From contig NZ_JARBAX010000001.1 of assembly GCF_028807635.1 (NCBI RefSeq), forward strand, positions 4,203,501 through 4,267,500: a DNA stretch of 64,000 bases, in the 5' to 3' direction. A program made the position numbers and the translations under genes. This stretch comes from Streptomyces spiramyceticus. GTDB taxonomy: Bacteria; Actinomycetota; Actinomycetes; Streptomycetales; Streptomycetaceae. Numbering within the stretch: the stretch's first letter is position 1; each line of letters begins with the position of its first letter. Below the pieces are notes generated by a model. That model was not told the origin of the DNA. It saw only the letters and a list, made by a program, of their open reading frames with translations, and did no database searches. Of the stretch, positions 417-18,840 are shown one piece after another.

Positions 417-725
417 TCACTCGTCGTCAGGCAGCGCTGTCAGAGACTCGCGTGTGTGTCCGAAGGCATTGAGGACATCATCGAGCGGAGTCCGACGCCC
501 GGTGTCGGTCACGCTGCGTGCGAGTACCAGGGCCAGATCGCGAAGATCGGCAGCGGCTTCCTCGAGCTCGTCAAGTCGGCTGATGCTGACAACGGCGGCC
601 ACGCGTTCCTTGTGGCGCGTGACGACAATGCCAGAACCCTGTTCTGCGTCGGCTACGAGTCCCGGGACGCCGCGCCGTGTCGCCTCGGTGACGCTCAATT
701 CGTGGGCATCGTGCAGCACAGTCAT
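417..725 (-). CDS. Phd/YefM-family antitoxin
   Basis: The 102-residue protein begins MTVLHDAHELSVTEATRRG and contains GIVVTRHKERVAAVVS, the strand-helix pattern of Phd/YefM antitoxins (N-terminal DNA-binding fold, C-terminal toxin-wrapping segment rich in acidic residues, ending LPDDE). It precedes the RelE/ParE-like toxin by 3 nt, the usual antitoxin-first order. Family members neutralise the toxin and repress their own promoter, which fits the TGTACA palindrome just upstream. Only 3 acidic residues close the C-terminus, so the toxin-binding helix is probably residues 60-95. Confidence 0.85.
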   Translation of the reverse strand: MTVLHDAHELSVTEATRRGVPGLVADAEQGSGIVVTRHKERVAAVVSISRLDELEEAAADLRDLALVLARSVTDTGRRTPLDDVLNAFGHTRESLTALPDDE

Positions 726-11880: not shown

Positions 11881-13053
11881 TTACGGGAAGGGGTGGGTAG
11901 GGGAAAGCGCCGCAGGCACCTGGTCCGCGCGGGCCTGTGCACGTCGCCGGTACAGCCACCGATCGACCACCAGGAACCGCCCCGCGAACACCACCACCAT
12001 GCTGATCGCCGTCGCCGGCACAGGCGCAATCCCCGCCCAGCCGATGATCAGCGCCGCCAGCGGAAGCCGAGCCACAAGGTCCGCGTTGCCGACCGCTGCG
12101 AACGTGAGCAGGCGCACCGATCTGCGGTGGTGGCTGCGCTGCACGCGGTACAGCAGCGAGTCCACCAGGACGAAGTTCCAGAGCAGCCCCGCCTGGTTGG
12201 CGATGATCTCGGCGGGGGCGAAGTGCAGGCCGCCCGGCCCGTTGAGCAGCCACAACAGCGCCAGGTTCGGCACGAACCCGGACAGCCCGATCAGCCCGAA
12301 CGCCGCGACCCGCGCCCGCGGATCCGACGTGCGCAGCGTCACCAGATGGCGCAGGAAGCGCATCCCTTCCTTCACCGTCGACTTCGACTCACCCGCGTGC
12401 CGCTGCCCGAAGGTGTACGGGACTTCGGCGATCGCGCGCGGCCGGCACCGTACAGCCAGCTCCAGCAGGATTTTGTAGCCCAGCGGCTGAAGACCCTCGC
12501 GGGTCGTTGCCCGGTCCACCGCCTCCCGGCGGATCGCGAAGAAGCCGCTCATGGGATCCGTCAGGCCCCGCAGCGCCCGCGGAAAGAGCGCCTTCGTAAG
12601 AGCCGTCGACGCCCCCGAAACCAGCACCCGGTAGCCGCCCGCGAGCCCGGACCGGCTGCCGCCCGCCGCGTACCGGCTGGCGACGACCAGTTCCGCACCG
12701 GTCGCGCGCCCGCGGGCGATCAACTCCGGTACCAGCTCCGGCGGATGCTGCAGATCGGCGTCGATGACGACGATCCAGGGTGCCGTCGCGCGGGCGATGC
12801 CTTCGACGACCGCACCCCCGAGGCCGCCGACAGGCACCGCCCTGTGGTGCAGAACGACGGGCAGCGGGCTCGACCCCGCCGCCTCCTCGATGACCTCGCA
12901 GGTGTGGTCCGTCGAGTCGTCGGCGAAGATCACCTCGGCGGTGACACCCGCCGAGGTGACGGCCGTGCCGATTCTGCGCAGCAACTCCCGGATGTTGTCG
13001 GCCTCGTTGAAGGTCGGCACGACTATGGACACATCGGCCGACTCCGGCGTCAC
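11881..13053 (-). CDS. Polyprenol-phosphate glycosyltransferase fused to a GtrA-type membrane domain
   Basis: A 390-residue protein. Residues 1-235 are a GT2 dolichyl-phosphate mannose synthase-like domain with SIVVPTFNEADNI, VIDADLQHPPELVP (DxD metal motif) and ATTREGLQPLGYKILLE. Residues 250-370 form a four-helix GtrA-like domain (FGLIGLSGFVPNLALLWLLN). Such fusions transfer a sugar to a lipid carrier and move it across the membrane. The GTG at 13053 overlaps the stop of the upstream glycosyltransferase remnant and has GGAGG upstream. Its last residues and stop lie inside a dispersed repeat. Confidence 0.88.
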   Translation of the reverse strand: MTPESADVSIVVPTFNEADNIRELLRRIGTAVTSAGVTAEVIFADDSTDHTCEVIEEAAGSSPLPVVLHHRAVPVGGLGGAVVEGIARATAPWIVVIDADLQHPPELVPELIARGRATGAELVVASRYAAGGSRSGLAGGYRVLVSGASTALTKALFPRALRGLTDPMSGFFAIRREAVDRATTREGLQPLGYKILLELAVRCRPRAIAEVPYTFGQRHAGESKSTVKEGMRFLRHLVTLRTSDPRARVAAFGLIGLSGFVPNLALLWLLNGPGGLHFAPAEIIANQAGLLWNFVLVDSLLYRVQRSHHRRSVRLLTFAAVGNADLVARLPLAALIIGWAGIAPVPATAISMVVVFAGRFLVVDRWLYRRRAQARADQVPAALSPTHPFP

Positions 13054-13423
13054 CGAACCTCCTGCTGTTGCCGCTGCTGTGGGGCCGTGCTCAGGTGCGC
13101 GCCGATGTGGGACGTCAGCTCCCAGTCCCTGCGCCCGGTGTACTCCCGCCAGACCGCACGCAGCGCAGCCGCCGCGAGCACGACCGCGTACAGCGGCCCT
13201 CCGACGGTCAGCTTCACGTACTGCCACGGGCCGATCCGGAAACCGTACTCGCGCCCGAAGTCGTGCAGCGCGACCGCTTCGAAGACCGTCATGGCGGCCA
13301 TCGGAACCATCGGCAGCCAGGCGATCATCGCGATGGGCAGTGGTACGCCGCCGACCCAGGCCAGCAGCAGACCGGCCGGAATCATGACACCAGATGCAGC
13401 CGGCTGCGGAACCAGAAGAAGTA
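13050..13423 (-). pseudogene. C-terminal part of a GT2 membrane glycosyltransferase, interrupted
   Basis: Read on the minus strand, 13423-13394 encodes YFFWFRSRLH, a motif of processive GT2 enzymes, and from 13385 a second frame encodes MIPAGLLLAWVGGVPLP and the rest of the membrane-embedded C-terminus to a stop at 13050. Between the two pieces the catalytic core (normally over 100 residues) is gone and the frame shifts. The next gene begins in a GTGA overlap with this stop, so the two were once one operon. The missing upstream part lies at 15624-15950. Confidence 0.8.
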
Positions 13424-13541
13424 CCTCTGCTCTTTGCGGCGCCCTTCGGGGTGCGTGACCTTTGTGGGTGCGGGCGCGTTGAGTACGTGAGTCCGACGAT
13501 CGGACAACGGATCGTTGGGAGACCGGGCAGGGGGTGCGGGG

Positions 13542-15623
13542 GTGCGGCGGAAGATTCAGCTGAGCGAGGGGGAGACGGAGCGGGTGGCTTGCGCGTCGGC
13601 GTCCGCGTTCCGTGCCCTGGACACGGTCACCGGTGAGGTCCTGGACTCCGGTGCGCTGGCCGGGCGCGCGGGCTGGCTTACCGATCTGATCGAGACCATG
13701 TGCGAGGTGGTGACCGGCGCCCACTTCAACCGCCCCGACCTGGCTCAACTCGCCTCCGGGCAGGCGCCATCAGGGGAGAAGCTGCCGTCCAATGCGTGGA
13801 TGGCGTTACGCACCCTGGGCTGGACCGCGAGTGCGCCGCAGGGCGTATACGTCCCCGACCGGGTGCGCCGGATCGCGGAGGAGCAGGCCGGACGGGCGCT
13901 GCGCTCGGCGTGGTGGCGTGCCGAGATCACCGATGCGCTGCTGGTGACCTGGCCCACCGGCCCTGACCCGCTGAAGCGCTCCGATACCGAGTGGGCGGCG
14001 CTGCGGGCGGCGCTGCCGGACGGAGGTGCGGTGGCGGCCTCGGTGGTGCGTGCACGCACCCGGCAGATCGGGGCCTTCCATGCCGCCCAGGGTCGGCTGC
14101 CCGCTGAACTGTGTGAGCTGGAGGATCCGCCCGGTGGCGGGTATCAAGTGGTGCTGGCCGCCGCCGACAAGCAGCTGGCTACCTTGGCCCGGTGTGAGGA
14201 GGATCCTGCCCGCTTTGCGGTGTTGACGGTGCGGTTGCCGGTGCGGCCCGACCCGCGTACTCGCACCGACTGGCACCCGGTGCTGATCCGGTTCCGGCTG
14301 CCGCCGACCATCGCGCACACCGCGGCACTCCATATGCCCACCCTGCGGCTGCGCAGCGGCAGGCTGCGGCTGGATGTCGCCCACACCACCGCCGTCCCCA
14401 AGACCCGCCGCAACGGCCACGTACGGGCGGTGGCCTTCGACTACGGGCTGAACACCCTGCTCACCGGCGGGGTTCTGGCACTGTCCGGCGGGGTGCAGCC
14501 GACTGTTCTCACCGATGGCCGACCGGTGTTCTTCCGCACCAGCGGGGTGCTGGCGAAGGCCGACCGGCTGCGTGTGCTGGCCGAGCGGTTGTGGGCCAAG
14601 GCCGCTCGCCTCCAGTCCCTGATCGACGGCCGGACCGCACGAGGGTGGCGCGCCGACCCACTCATCGTGGCGAAGCTGGCGGTACTGCGGGCCGAGTACG
14701 CGGCGGTCGGCCGACGCCGCAAACGCCTGAACGAGCAGCTTGCCCAGGCCGCCGCGCGTTTCATGGTCACCCAGGCGCGGGCGGCTGATACGTCGGTGAT
14801 CTATCTGGAGGATCTGCGGGACATGGAGGTGCGCGGCAAGGGCCGTACCCTCAACACCCGCCTCTCGCAGTCCGTGCGTGGGCAGATCGTGGCCCGTACC
14901 CGCCACCAGGCCATGAAGTACGGGATCGCGGTGGTGATTGTCCCGGCCCGGGGCACCTCGAAATACTGCCCCAGGTGCCTCACCGCCTTCCGGCACCGCA
15001 CCGCCCCGGACCGTACGACCCCGGGCTGGAAGTGGGCGAGCTGCCCCAATACGGCCTGCGCTTACAGCGTCGACCGTGATGTGGCGGCCTGGCAGCGCAT
15101 CGGAGCCCGCGGTCTGCAACATCAGCATCTGACCGTCCTGGACCGGGCGAGTGGCACGTATGTGATCCGCCGCACCGTTCAGGAGTTGGACCTCCCGGTC
15201 CAACACACCCCTCGCCCCGGACCCGCCACCATGTCTGTGCCACAGCAGCCTGCTGTTGTGGACCGGACGAAGGCGGGGCCGACGAGAAACCGCCCTGTGC
15301 CCAGGCAGCGACGCAGGGTCCCCGCCCCACCCGCAACACCCGCAGCGCATACTGCGGGCCCGGGTGGAAAGCGTCCGGCGGGGCGGCCGCCCCAGTCCCC
15401 AACCCACCGCACCCAGCGGCGGCGCAGGGGGCAGGCACCGCACACGATGAGCACCCCCACCCGGCAGTCACACCAGCCGTGCGGGGCGAGACTCGGCGCA
15501 GGCTTCCACCTGCACACCCACGCCACCCCCGTCACACCACGCGGGCGGCCAGGGCCGAGACCTCTTTTCCTTCAAGGCCGGGCCGAAGACCCAGCCCGCC
15601 CAGGAAAGCCTAAGCTCATCTGA
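13542..15623 (+). CDS. Large TnpB-like RuvC nuclease with zinc ribbon
   Basis: A 693-residue protein from GTG 13542 (a TTG 27 nt upstream is possible). The RuvC triad reads AFDYGLN (Asp300), IYLEDLRD (Glu423) and VDRDVAAW (Asp511/513). A zinc ribbon lies between (CPRC 476-479 and C501-x4-C506). Family members are RNA-guided DNA nucleases. It is larger than typical TnpB (about 400 residues), with an extra N-terminal region of about 290 residues and a Pro/Arg/Thr low-complexity tail from about 560. A TTA codon at 13806-13808 would make translation depend on bldA. Confidence 0.85.
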   Translation: MRRKIQLSEGETERVACASASAFRALDTVTGEVLDSGALAGRAGWLTDLIETMCEVVTGAHFNRPDLAQLASGQAPSGEKLPSNAWMALRTLGWTASAPQGVYVPDRVRRIAEEQAGRALRSAWWRAEITDALLVTWPTGPDPLKRSDTEWAALRAALPDGGAVAASVVRARTRQIGAFHAAQGRLPAELCELEDPPGGGYQVVLAAADKQLATLARCEEDPARFAVLTVRLPVRPDPRTRTDWHPVLIRFRLPPTIAHTAALHMPTLRLRSGRLRLDVAHTTAVPKTRRNGHVRAVAFDYGLNTLLTGGVLALSGGVQPTVLTDGRPVFFRTSGVLAKADRLRVLAERLWAKAARLQSLIDGRTARGWRADPLIVAKLAVLRAEYAAVGRRRKRLNEQLAQAAARFMVTQARAADTSVIYLEDLRDMEVRGKGRTLNTRLSQSVRGQIVARTRHQAMKYGIAVVIVPARGTSKYCPRCLTAFRHRTAPDRTTPGWKWASCPNTACAYSVDRDVAAWQRIGARGLQHQHLTVLDRASGTYVIRRTVQELDLPVQHTPRPGPATMSVPQQPAVVDRTKAGPTRNRPVPRQRRRVPAPPATPAAHTAGPGGKRPAGRPPQSPTHRTQRRRRGQAPHTMSTPTRQSHQPCGARLGAGFHLHTHATPVTPRGRPGPRPLFLQGRAEDPARPGKPKLI
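15400..15623 (+). ncRNA. Predicted omegaRNA (guide RNA) region at the element's right end
   Basis: In TnpB elements the guide RNA comes from the 3' end of the element and overlaps the nuclease gene's end, with the guide reaching into flanking DNA. The last 220 bp here encode only low-complexity residues, as expected if RNA structure rather than protein is selected. The guide would begin at 15624. No structure was computed, so limits are approximate. Confidence 0.3.
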
Positions 15624-15950
15624 GACGCTGTACCAGCTGGTGTCGAAGTTGACGAGCTGCACGCCGCCCCACACCACGTCCGCGTTGTCACGCCAGAAGT
15701 CGAAGTCGACGTGGCTGAGAAGTTCGTGGTGGACGATGTCCTCCGCGTCGAAGACGCCGATGATGTCGCCCCGGGCGTACGGCAGCGCGGTGTTGAGGGC
15801 GCGGGGCTTGTTCTTGACCTCGTGGGTGTCCACGACGGCCTGGGTCAAATGCGGGTGTTCGGCGGCCAGTTGGTGTGCGATGGCGCGGTGCCGGGGGCGT
15901 CGTGGTCGAGGATCAGCACGACCTCGCAGCCGGGATGGTGGTCGGTCCGC
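15624..15950 (-). pseudogene. Central fragment of the interrupted GT2 glycosyltransferase
   Basis: The minus strand encodes, in one frame, HPGCEVVLILDHDAPGTA and, one base out of register, RAIAHQLAAEHPHLTQAVVD followed by NKPRALNTALPYARGDIIG, VFDAEDIVHHELL and GGVQLVNFDTSWYSV. These are the nucleotide-sugar binding and DxD regions of a membrane GT2 enzyme. The 1-nt frameshift lies near 15885-15890. The N-terminus is missing, with a TetR fragment directly upstream. The remainder of the enzyme lies beyond the inserted TnpB element at 13050-13423. Confidence 0.78.
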
Positions 15951-17016: not shown

Positions 17017-18840
17017 GTGGCGCGCGACAACGCGGCTCCCACCACCCTTCCGACGAACCACCAGGAGCTGATCTCCTGGGTCGACGAGATCGCAGCCCTC
17101 ACCGAGCCCGCCCAGGTCGTCTGGTGCGACGGCTCGGAGGCCGAGTACCAGCGCCTCGCCGAGGAGCTCGTGGCCAGGGGCACGTTCAAGAAGCTGGACC
17201 CGGTCAAGCGCCCGAACTCGTACTACGCCGCCTCCGACCCGAGCGACGTCGCCCGCGTCGAGGACCGCACCTTCATCTGCTCCGAGAAGGAAGAGGACGC
17301 GGGCCCGACGAACCACTGGAAGGCCCCCGCAGAGATGCGCGAGATCTTCTCGGGCGAGAAGGGTGTCTTCCGCGGCTCGATGCGCGGCCGCACGATGTAC
17401 GTCGTCCCGTTCTGCATGGGCCCCGTCGGCTCGCCGCTCTCCGCCATCGGCGTCGAGATCACGGACTCCGCGTACGTCGCCGTCTCGATGCGCACCATGA
17501 CCCGTATGGGCCAGGCCGTCCTCGACGAGCTCGGCACCGACGGCTTCTTCGTCAAGGCCGTCCACACCCTCGGCGCCCCGCTCGCCGAGGGCGAGGCCGA
17601 CGTGCCGTGGCCGTGCAACTCCACGAAGTACATCTCGCACTTCCCCGAGGACCGCGAGATCTGGTCGTACGGCTCGGGCTACGGCGGCAACGCCCTGCTC
17701 GGCAAGAAGTGCTACGCCCTGCGCATCGCGTCCGTCATGGCGCGCGACGAGGGCTGGCTGGCCGAGCACATGCTGATCCTCAAGCTGACGCCGCCGAGGG
17801 GCGAGTCGAAGTACGTTGCCGCGGCCTTCCCGTCCGCCTGCGGCAAGACCAACCTCGCCATGCTGGAGCCCACGATCTCCGGCTGGACCGTCGAGACCAT
17901 CGGTGACGACATCGCCTGGATGCGGTTCGGCGAGGACGGCCGGCTGTACGCGATCAACCCCGAGGCCGGCTTCTTCGGCGTCGCGCCCGGCACCGGCGAG
18001 CACACCAACGCCAACGCCATGAAGACCATGTGGGGCAACTCGGTCTTCACGAACGTCGCGCTCACCGACGACAACGACGTGTGGTGGGAGGGCATGACCG
18101 AGGAGGCGCCCGCGCACCTCACGGACTGGAAGGGCAACGACTGGACCCCCGAGTCCGGCACCCCCGCCGCCCACCCCAACGCCCGCTTCACCGTCCCGGC
18201 GGGCCAGTGCCCGATCATCGCGCCCGAGTGGGAGGACCCCAAGGGCGTACCGATCTCGGCGATCCTCTTCGGCGGCCGCCGCGCCACGGCCGTGCCGCTG
18301 GTGACTGAGTCCTTCAACTGGCAGCACGGTGTCTTCCTCGGCGCGAACGTCGCGTCCGAGAAGACCGCCGCCGCCGAGGGCAAGGTGGGCGAGCTGCGCC
18401 GCGACCCGTTCGCCATGCTGCCGTTCTGCGGCTACAACATGGGCGACTACATGGGCCACTGGGTCAAGGTCGGTGCGGACAAGGACCAGTCCAAGCTCCC
18501 GAAGATCTACTACGTCAACTGGTTCCGCAAGAACGACGCGGGCAAGTTCGTGTGGCCCGGCTTCGGCGAGAACAGCCGCGTGCTCAAGTGGATCGTGGAG
18601 CGCCTGGAGGGCAAGGCCGAGGGCGTCGAGACGCCGATCGGCATTCTGCCGGCGAAGGGCGCGCTGGACACGGAGGGCCTGGACCTGCCGGAGTCCGACC
18701 TGGACTTCCTGCTCTCCGTCGACAAGGAGGTCTGGCGCGAAGAGGCCGCGCTGATCCCCGAGCACCTCAACACCTTCGGTGACCACGCCCCGAAGGAGCT
18801 GTGGGACGAGTACCGCGCACTGGTCGAGCGCCTGGGCTGA
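17017..18840 (+). CDS. pckG: Phosphoenolpyruvate carboxykinase (GTP)
   Basis: A 607-residue enzyme that converts oxaloacetate and GTP to phosphoenolpyruvate, for gluconeogenesis. The length and motifs match the GTP-dependent class: the kinase loop [12 protein letters not shown] (about 270-281), the substrate-binding [14 protein letters not shown], the metal/PEP site [10 protein letters not shown], and the [12 protein letters not shown] nucleotide segment. The GTG start at 17017 follows AGGAGC by 5 nt. A strong terminator follows the stop. Confidence 0.97.

Follow-up and report, generated by a model that had tools for sequence, protein, structure and literature searches.

TnpBs are the forerunners of Cas12 nucleases and are used as compact editors, and the question raised by the locus described here is whether an open reading frame (ORF) for an unusually large TnpB-like RuvC nuclease belongs to a transposon or to a step toward Cas12. 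The ORF lies in a stretch of 64,000 nucleotides (nt) of Streptomyces spiramyceticus DNA (contig NZ_JARBAX010000001.1, positions 4,203,501 to 4,267,500), called the window below. The original prediction, made from the letters of the window, described an oversized nuclease of 693 residues that might be an intermediate toward small Cas12 proteins or a separate branch. The conclusion reached here is that the ORF is very probably a tnpB gene from a deep-branching lineage of large IS607 TnpBs, carried by an IS607-family transposon that is non-autonomous and truncated at its left end, a judgement that covers the kind of element and not the activity of the window copy.

That the tnpB-like ORF is not a chance frame follows from its many protein matches with high coverage. 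Of 7994 candidates scored in a protein search, 949 matched at E ≤ 1e-3, and the 120 of them that were listed are 48–80% identical to the ORF protein, most covering >90% of it. The named sources of the listed matches are Streptomyces, Micromonospora and other actinobacteria, with labels reading ‘zinc ribbon domain-containing protein’ or ‘transposase’, and the GTG start adopted here is the start of most aligned relatives. Pfam PF07282 (TNB zinc ribbon) scores 35.9 bits, above its cut-off of 26.3. The residues Asp300, Glu423 and Asp513 and the cysteines 476, 479, 501 and 506 are identical in 77/77 aligned sequences (the window and 76 loci, after exclusion from the 79 related loci of L040, L067 and L101, whose frames are broken or cut). 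The protein therefore carries the RuvC D-E-D triad and zinc ribbon of a TnpB, and both the nuclease and its intact catalytic and zinc-binding residues stand as originally described.

The setting of the gene is that of an IS607-family transposon. All five relatives compared (L003–L007) carry an uninterrupted glycosyltransferase gene and represent empty sites; in the window, the left flank ends after GAAGAAGTAC and continues past the element at CTGTACCAG, with ∼18 bp of the target missing. The right-end hexamer GACGCT is found in 75 of 79 right ends (the window and 78 loci, L101 being cut off by its contig) and is followed by variable sequence, while the tnpB stop codon falls ≤16 nt from the end of the hexamer in 73 of the 79. 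This stop position, together with tnpA in relatives, places the gene at the right end of an element, as expected for IS200/IS605 or IS607. Among recognized left ends, to which these counts are confined, AGG stands directly left of the element in 22/23 cases in clade 2 and in 10/16 in clade 1, the window's own clade, where four more read GGG. When the two flanks of L028 are joined (...AGG+CT...), they align gap-free over the junction with uninterrupted DNA in 12/12 loci fetched, at 79–98% identity (61 genomes searched). Together with the empty sites of the window, this gives AGG^CT as the target, entered without duplication and with ≤1 nt shared. An earlier reading of the junction, with CT as part of the right end and AG^N as the target, was dropped because both sets of empty sites fit AGG^CT. 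The candidate empty site of L039 was set aside as uninformative on the motif, since its one match in 61 genomes (68%) passes gap-free through the junction without conserving the target letters. IS607 elements recombine at a matching dinucleotide, which is typically GG; here, left flanks have AGG but the right end reads CGCT, and either GC or GG is compatible as the core.

The absence of TnpA noted in the original prediction is true of the window element and does not extend to its relatives. Directly upstream of tnpB in 79 relatives, serine recombinase homology is near full length in 22, partial in 17 and absent in 40, and the three upstream recombinases scanned all pass the threshold of NF033518, the model for IS607 transposases, one of them barely (110.3 versus 110). 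The window copy is accordingly filed as a tnpA-less derivative rather than an autonomous IS607 element. This setting (tnpA in relatives, conserved ends and empty sites), the conserved residues and the predicted fold assign the protein to an IS607 lineage of TnpBs; by its score it falls outside the curated guided_TnpB subfamily. Ten copies occur in a single Micromonospora genome (CB01531; L044, L045, L046, L048, L049, L050, L052, L060, L074 and L086) with tnpA fragments at most, which suggests that they spread in trans or through a tnpA copy outside the loci fetched.

The distinctness of this lineage was examined in a maximum-likelihood tree of 30 rows, comprising 12 family members, 13 ordinary TnpBs of its own and related genomes and, in five rows, two other large families of Streptomyces type. 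The 12 members form a clade with 100/100 support whose branch measures 1.9 changes per column, and the ordinary TnpBs and both other large types fall outside it; a join with one of these large families has low support (73/77), and the program flagged that long branches meet. With the score of 43 bits against 100 for the guided_TnpB model, this speaks for the separate branch that had been proposed, and membership of the window TnpB in a separate large IS607-TnpB lineage is supported. Distant relatives were found by tblastn in 27 plasmid records, of which 15 were listed: Mycolicibacterium plasmids match at ∼32% identity, starting at residue 25, and haloarchaeal ones at ∼24%, starting no earlier than residue 79. 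In Natribaculum luteum, the large-TnpB gene overlaps an annotated IS607 transposase lying upstream (NF033518, 199 bits). A second search (19 records) has an IS607 transposase annotated under the match in 4 of the 15 records listed, and the Mycolicibacterium and Halorarius stretches examined contain no annotated tnpA. Loci L175–L177 are mycobacterial and haloarchaeal plasmid relatives, of which L176 adjoins an IS607 tnpA. An alignment of seven sequences keeps R107, R110, W244 and other residues of the N-domain in addition to the catalytic residues. Phage records gave no match to the large TnpB. A publication on this lineage was not found by title or abstract opening, and the survey of Altae-Tran 2023 (PNAS) may include it.

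Inside the ORF, and ending at the right end of the element, lies a predicted structured RNA, presumed from sequence comparison to be the guide-RNA scaffold. In clade 1, its helices contain 27 cells changed on both sides versus 7.2 in shuffles, none of 500 being as high, although the shuffles ignore kinship. The predicted guide with the preceding CT matches its own genome solely at its own flank, besides one site with three mismatches. From these data a most likely mode of action can be proposed. The tnpB transcript would fold in its 3′ part, which ends at 15629 and starts at ∼15446 or before, into a guide-RNA scaffold, and the ∼20 nt beyond the right end, contributed by the interrupted glycosyltransferase gene, would act as guide. 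The TnpB–RNA complex would then read an AGG(CT) motif and cut DNA in which the guide target lies beside it. The natural target would be the empty site, where cutting would favour retention of the transposon.

Several observations weigh against this interpretation. Besides the neglect of kinship in the shuffles, two weaker covariation measures in clade 1 behave like shuffled data (the number of double-change pairs is reached in 23/500 shuffles, that of further pair types in 135/500). In clade 2, the RNAalifold structure is almost without covariation (1/27 pairs); the helix in that clade was scored only once it had been singled out and shows few double changes, and pairing of the hairpin holds in 60% of cells. 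Rfam returns nothing at gathering scores and, at E ≤ 5, two hits of chance level, both to unrelated families; for RAGATH-18, presumably part of the library, there is no match at E ≤ 5 in 14900–15700. The NCBIfam model NF040570 (guided_TnpB) gives 43.1 bits under a cut-off of 100, with matches at E ≤ 1e-3 in 23/23 scanned family members (best E 1.2e-13). Lastly, the left end of the window copy is ∼50 nt short of the outer sequence when compared with five relatives, and this copy is the single one of its family found in its genome.

The last two points lead to the alternative that survives best, namely that the window holds a decayed relic, an element of the same kind whose copy has no working RNA or protein. 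It is compatible with the explanation preferred here, and it is a real though minority prospect. The truncated left end, the missing tnpA and the single copy speak for it, as does a host gene that is broken and has suffered a further deletion: ∼346 bp were lost from the glycosyltransferase directly left of the element (window 13391), separately from the insertion. The loss of the left end and of the missing target bases may itself be one deletion. Against decay speak the retention of the catalytic and zinc residues, a frame open throughout, and an intact right end with intact RNA helices. Lacking tnpA and the outer left end, the window copy is probably immobile by itself, though it may still have an active TnpB and guide RNA.

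The segment that encodes the presumed scaffold overlaps the codons for the C-terminal tail of the protein. The ∼140 residues of this tail are almost without codon periodicity in the window's clade, and their predicted local distance difference test (pLDDT) values are mostly <50 in models of both the window protein and a clade 2 protein, for which reason a folded domain was rejected. One frame (L034) stops within the tail, after 619 residues. In clade 2 (58 sequences), the residues matching window positions 646–666 (PRGAALGAGFHLHAHATPPRW) vary almost solely synonymously, with a ratio of 8.05 for 648–659. The peptide encoded there in clade 2, GAGFHLHAHATPPRW, is rich in histidine and lies within the presumed guide-RNA gene, where its amino acids are under selection. 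To judge from these codons, the clade 2 tail is evidently translated and in part selected as protein, and a merely untranslated chance frame was not accepted for that clade. No signal of synonymous selection is seen at 646–666 in clade 1; there, the PRGAALGAGFHLHAHATPPRW peptide is recognizable, and two subgroups differ mainly by replacements (657, 659 and 661), with one silent difference (652). The matching peptide is disordered in the clade 2 model, and our guess is that it binds the protein's own RNA. A broader proposal can be advanced tentatively, with the odds rather against it: that actinobacteria and haloarchaea share a deep lineage of large TnpBs of IS607 type that has no name yet, that in actinobacteria the whole guide-RNA scaffold lies inside the reading frame, and that in at least one clade these nucleotides also specify a C-terminal peptide (PRGAALGAGFHLHAHATPPRW) which is under selection and aids the protein in its work with its own RNA. 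If so, a single piece of transcript would be contested by translation and guide-RNA production, or the two processes would be coupled there.

The tail also qualifies the claim of exceptional size. Ahead of the RuvC-I residue Asp300 stand 299 residues (∼290 were first estimated), and this N-domain, which we take by its position to be ‘WED/REC-like’, is genuinely enlarged. The large size thus has two causes, the N-domain and the tail, and the second, a disordered extension over the right-end RNA region, escaped the original prediction; as ∼140 of 693 residues fall in it, the protein resembles small Cas12 proteins less than its full length suggests. The fold predicted by AlphaFold2 agrees with TnpB/Cas12f across residues 12–553. 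The structural score is higher for Cas12f (16.9) than for TnpB (14.1 and less), which does not decide descent in such a model comparison, Cas12f itself being TnpB-like, and the stretch alignable with Cas12 sequences is the RuvC/zinc part only.

An early Cas12 effector (Cas12n/V-U4-like), or an intermediate toward one, is a very improbable description of the ORF. Size and the somewhat higher Cas12f score are all that favours it, and part of the size is the tail. No array of clustered regularly interspaced short palindromic repeats (CRISPR) was found in the 11–19 kb portion of the window, which has one two-copy repeat of 20 nt only, or by an exact 20-mer scan of the whole window and 79 related loci. 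For want of an array near the ORF or its relatives, and with IS607 tnpA in relatives and conserved transposon ends, the proposed intermediate is not supported. According to PMC12669027, inferred transitions from TnpB to CRISPR number about 50, each independent, so that capture elsewhere in the large-TnpB family is possible; none was seen in the window and the 79 loci. A domesticated, nuclease-dead RNA-guided repressor of the TldR type, suggested by a lone tnpB without tnpA, is hardly credible, for TldRs have lost the RuvC triad and here it is complete in 77/77 sequences.

The features of the locus are collected in Table 1.

Table 1. Features of the tnpB locus in window coordinates
Feature	Position	Strand	Basis or remark
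tnpB-like ORF, 693 residues	13542..15623	+	GTG start (TTG at 13515 would give 702 residues); TGA stop inside right-end motif
N-domain, residues 1–299	13542..14438	+	AlphaFold2 model: strands, helices 36–193, strands again
RuvC and zinc-ribbon part, residues 300–551	14439..15194	+	Pfam PF07282; residues identical in 77/77
RuvC triad codon, Asp300	14439..14441	+	
RuvC triad codon, Glu423	14808..14810	+	
RuvC triad codon, Asp513	15078..15080	+	
Tail codons 552–693	15195..15623	+	Disordered as protein; little codon periodicity in the window's clade; overlaps RNA region
Remnant of IS607-family element with truncated left end and intact right end (GACG, then target-derived CT)	13425..15627	+	Empty sites L003–L007; conserved right end in relatives; left-end alignment
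3′ part of interrupted glycosyltransferase gene, with ∼346-bp internal deletion near 13391	13050..13424	−	Alignment to uninterrupted relatives
5′ part of interrupted family-2 glycosyltransferase gene	15628..15848	−	Pfam Glycos_transf_2; alignment to L003/L004
Presumed guide-RNA scaffold, minimum extent	15446..15629	+	Covariation; 5′ limit may lie further upstream
Closing helix, 5′ arm GATGAGC	15446..15452	+	Covariation
Closing helix, 3′ arm GCTCATC	15614..15620	+	Covariation
3′ hairpin with compensatory changes	15580..15597 (approximate)	+	Covariation, helix 4
Predicted 20-nt guide from interrupted gene	15630..15649	+	In relatives, GACGCT is followed at once by variable sequence; guide length is an assumption based on other TnpBs

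The neighbours of the element are ordinary: a family-2 glycosyltransferase with a GtrA domain (11881–13050, − strand) and a GTP-dependent phosphoenolpyruvate carboxykinase (17017–18840, + strand). Other large TnpB types occur in the same genome. Two TnpB-like frames of 670 and 662 residues (L160 and L161; C1 4825500–4829500 and C2 886700–890700) belong to a different family with a long C-terminal tail, and L169 is similar. Two more, of 548 and 574 residues (L162 and L163), have the motif DPAYTS..W, the usual CxxC zinc ribbon was not seen in them, and they are possibly another derived family.

An abundant lineage that scores under the curated cut-off and combines a target motif of its own with an enlarged recognition domain and, apparently, a guide RNA within the gene widens the picture of TnpB, and it offers a test of one nucleotide stretch serving protein and guide RNA. 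Comparison with known systems helps to place it. The ISDra2 TnpB works with another transposase class and another target-adjacent motif (TAM); this IS200/IS605 protein (8exa) is also smaller than the window TnpB. Cas12f (AsCas12f, 8dzj; OsCas12f, 9nzq) gives the highest structural and profile scores and is a CRISPR effector, whereas the scans of the window and the 79 loci found the window TnpB without an array. The haloarchaeal IS607 ‘zinc ribbon’ proteins (for example, Natribaculum luteum WP_246975932.1) are 22–24% identical, N-domain included, and keep the triad and cysteines, but they are shorter (551–594 residues), and the C-terminal motif is unrecognizable in the two aligned. Two published IS607 systems, ISFba1 and ISXfa1, serve as precedents and fit the window element. 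RAGATH-18 IS607 TnpBs are defined by a protein of 330–433 residues and an RNA outside the coding sequence (PMC11061315), a definition that the window protein, with 693 residues and its RNA region inside the ORF, does not fit. ISFba1 TnpB shares with the window TnpB the IS607 setting, the RuvC D-E-D triad, a G-rich target motif starting with AGG (its TAM is AGGAG) and a similar scaffold length (187 nt versus at least ∼184 nt for the presumed scaffold of the window); it differs in protein size (387 residues versus a core of ∼550 plus tail) and in the position of its right-element RNA (reRNA), outside the coding sequence instead of inside the ORF (PMC11061315). ISXfa1 likewise has the IS607 setting and a fixed nucleotide right of the element, with a GGG TAM and a reRNA of ∼150 nt (PMC10711439) where AGG(CT) and at least ∼184 nt are predicted for the window TnpB. 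In ISXfa1 this right-flanking nucleotide belongs to the scaffold, and by analogy the near-invariant CT right of the window element could be explained in the same way (PMC10711439).
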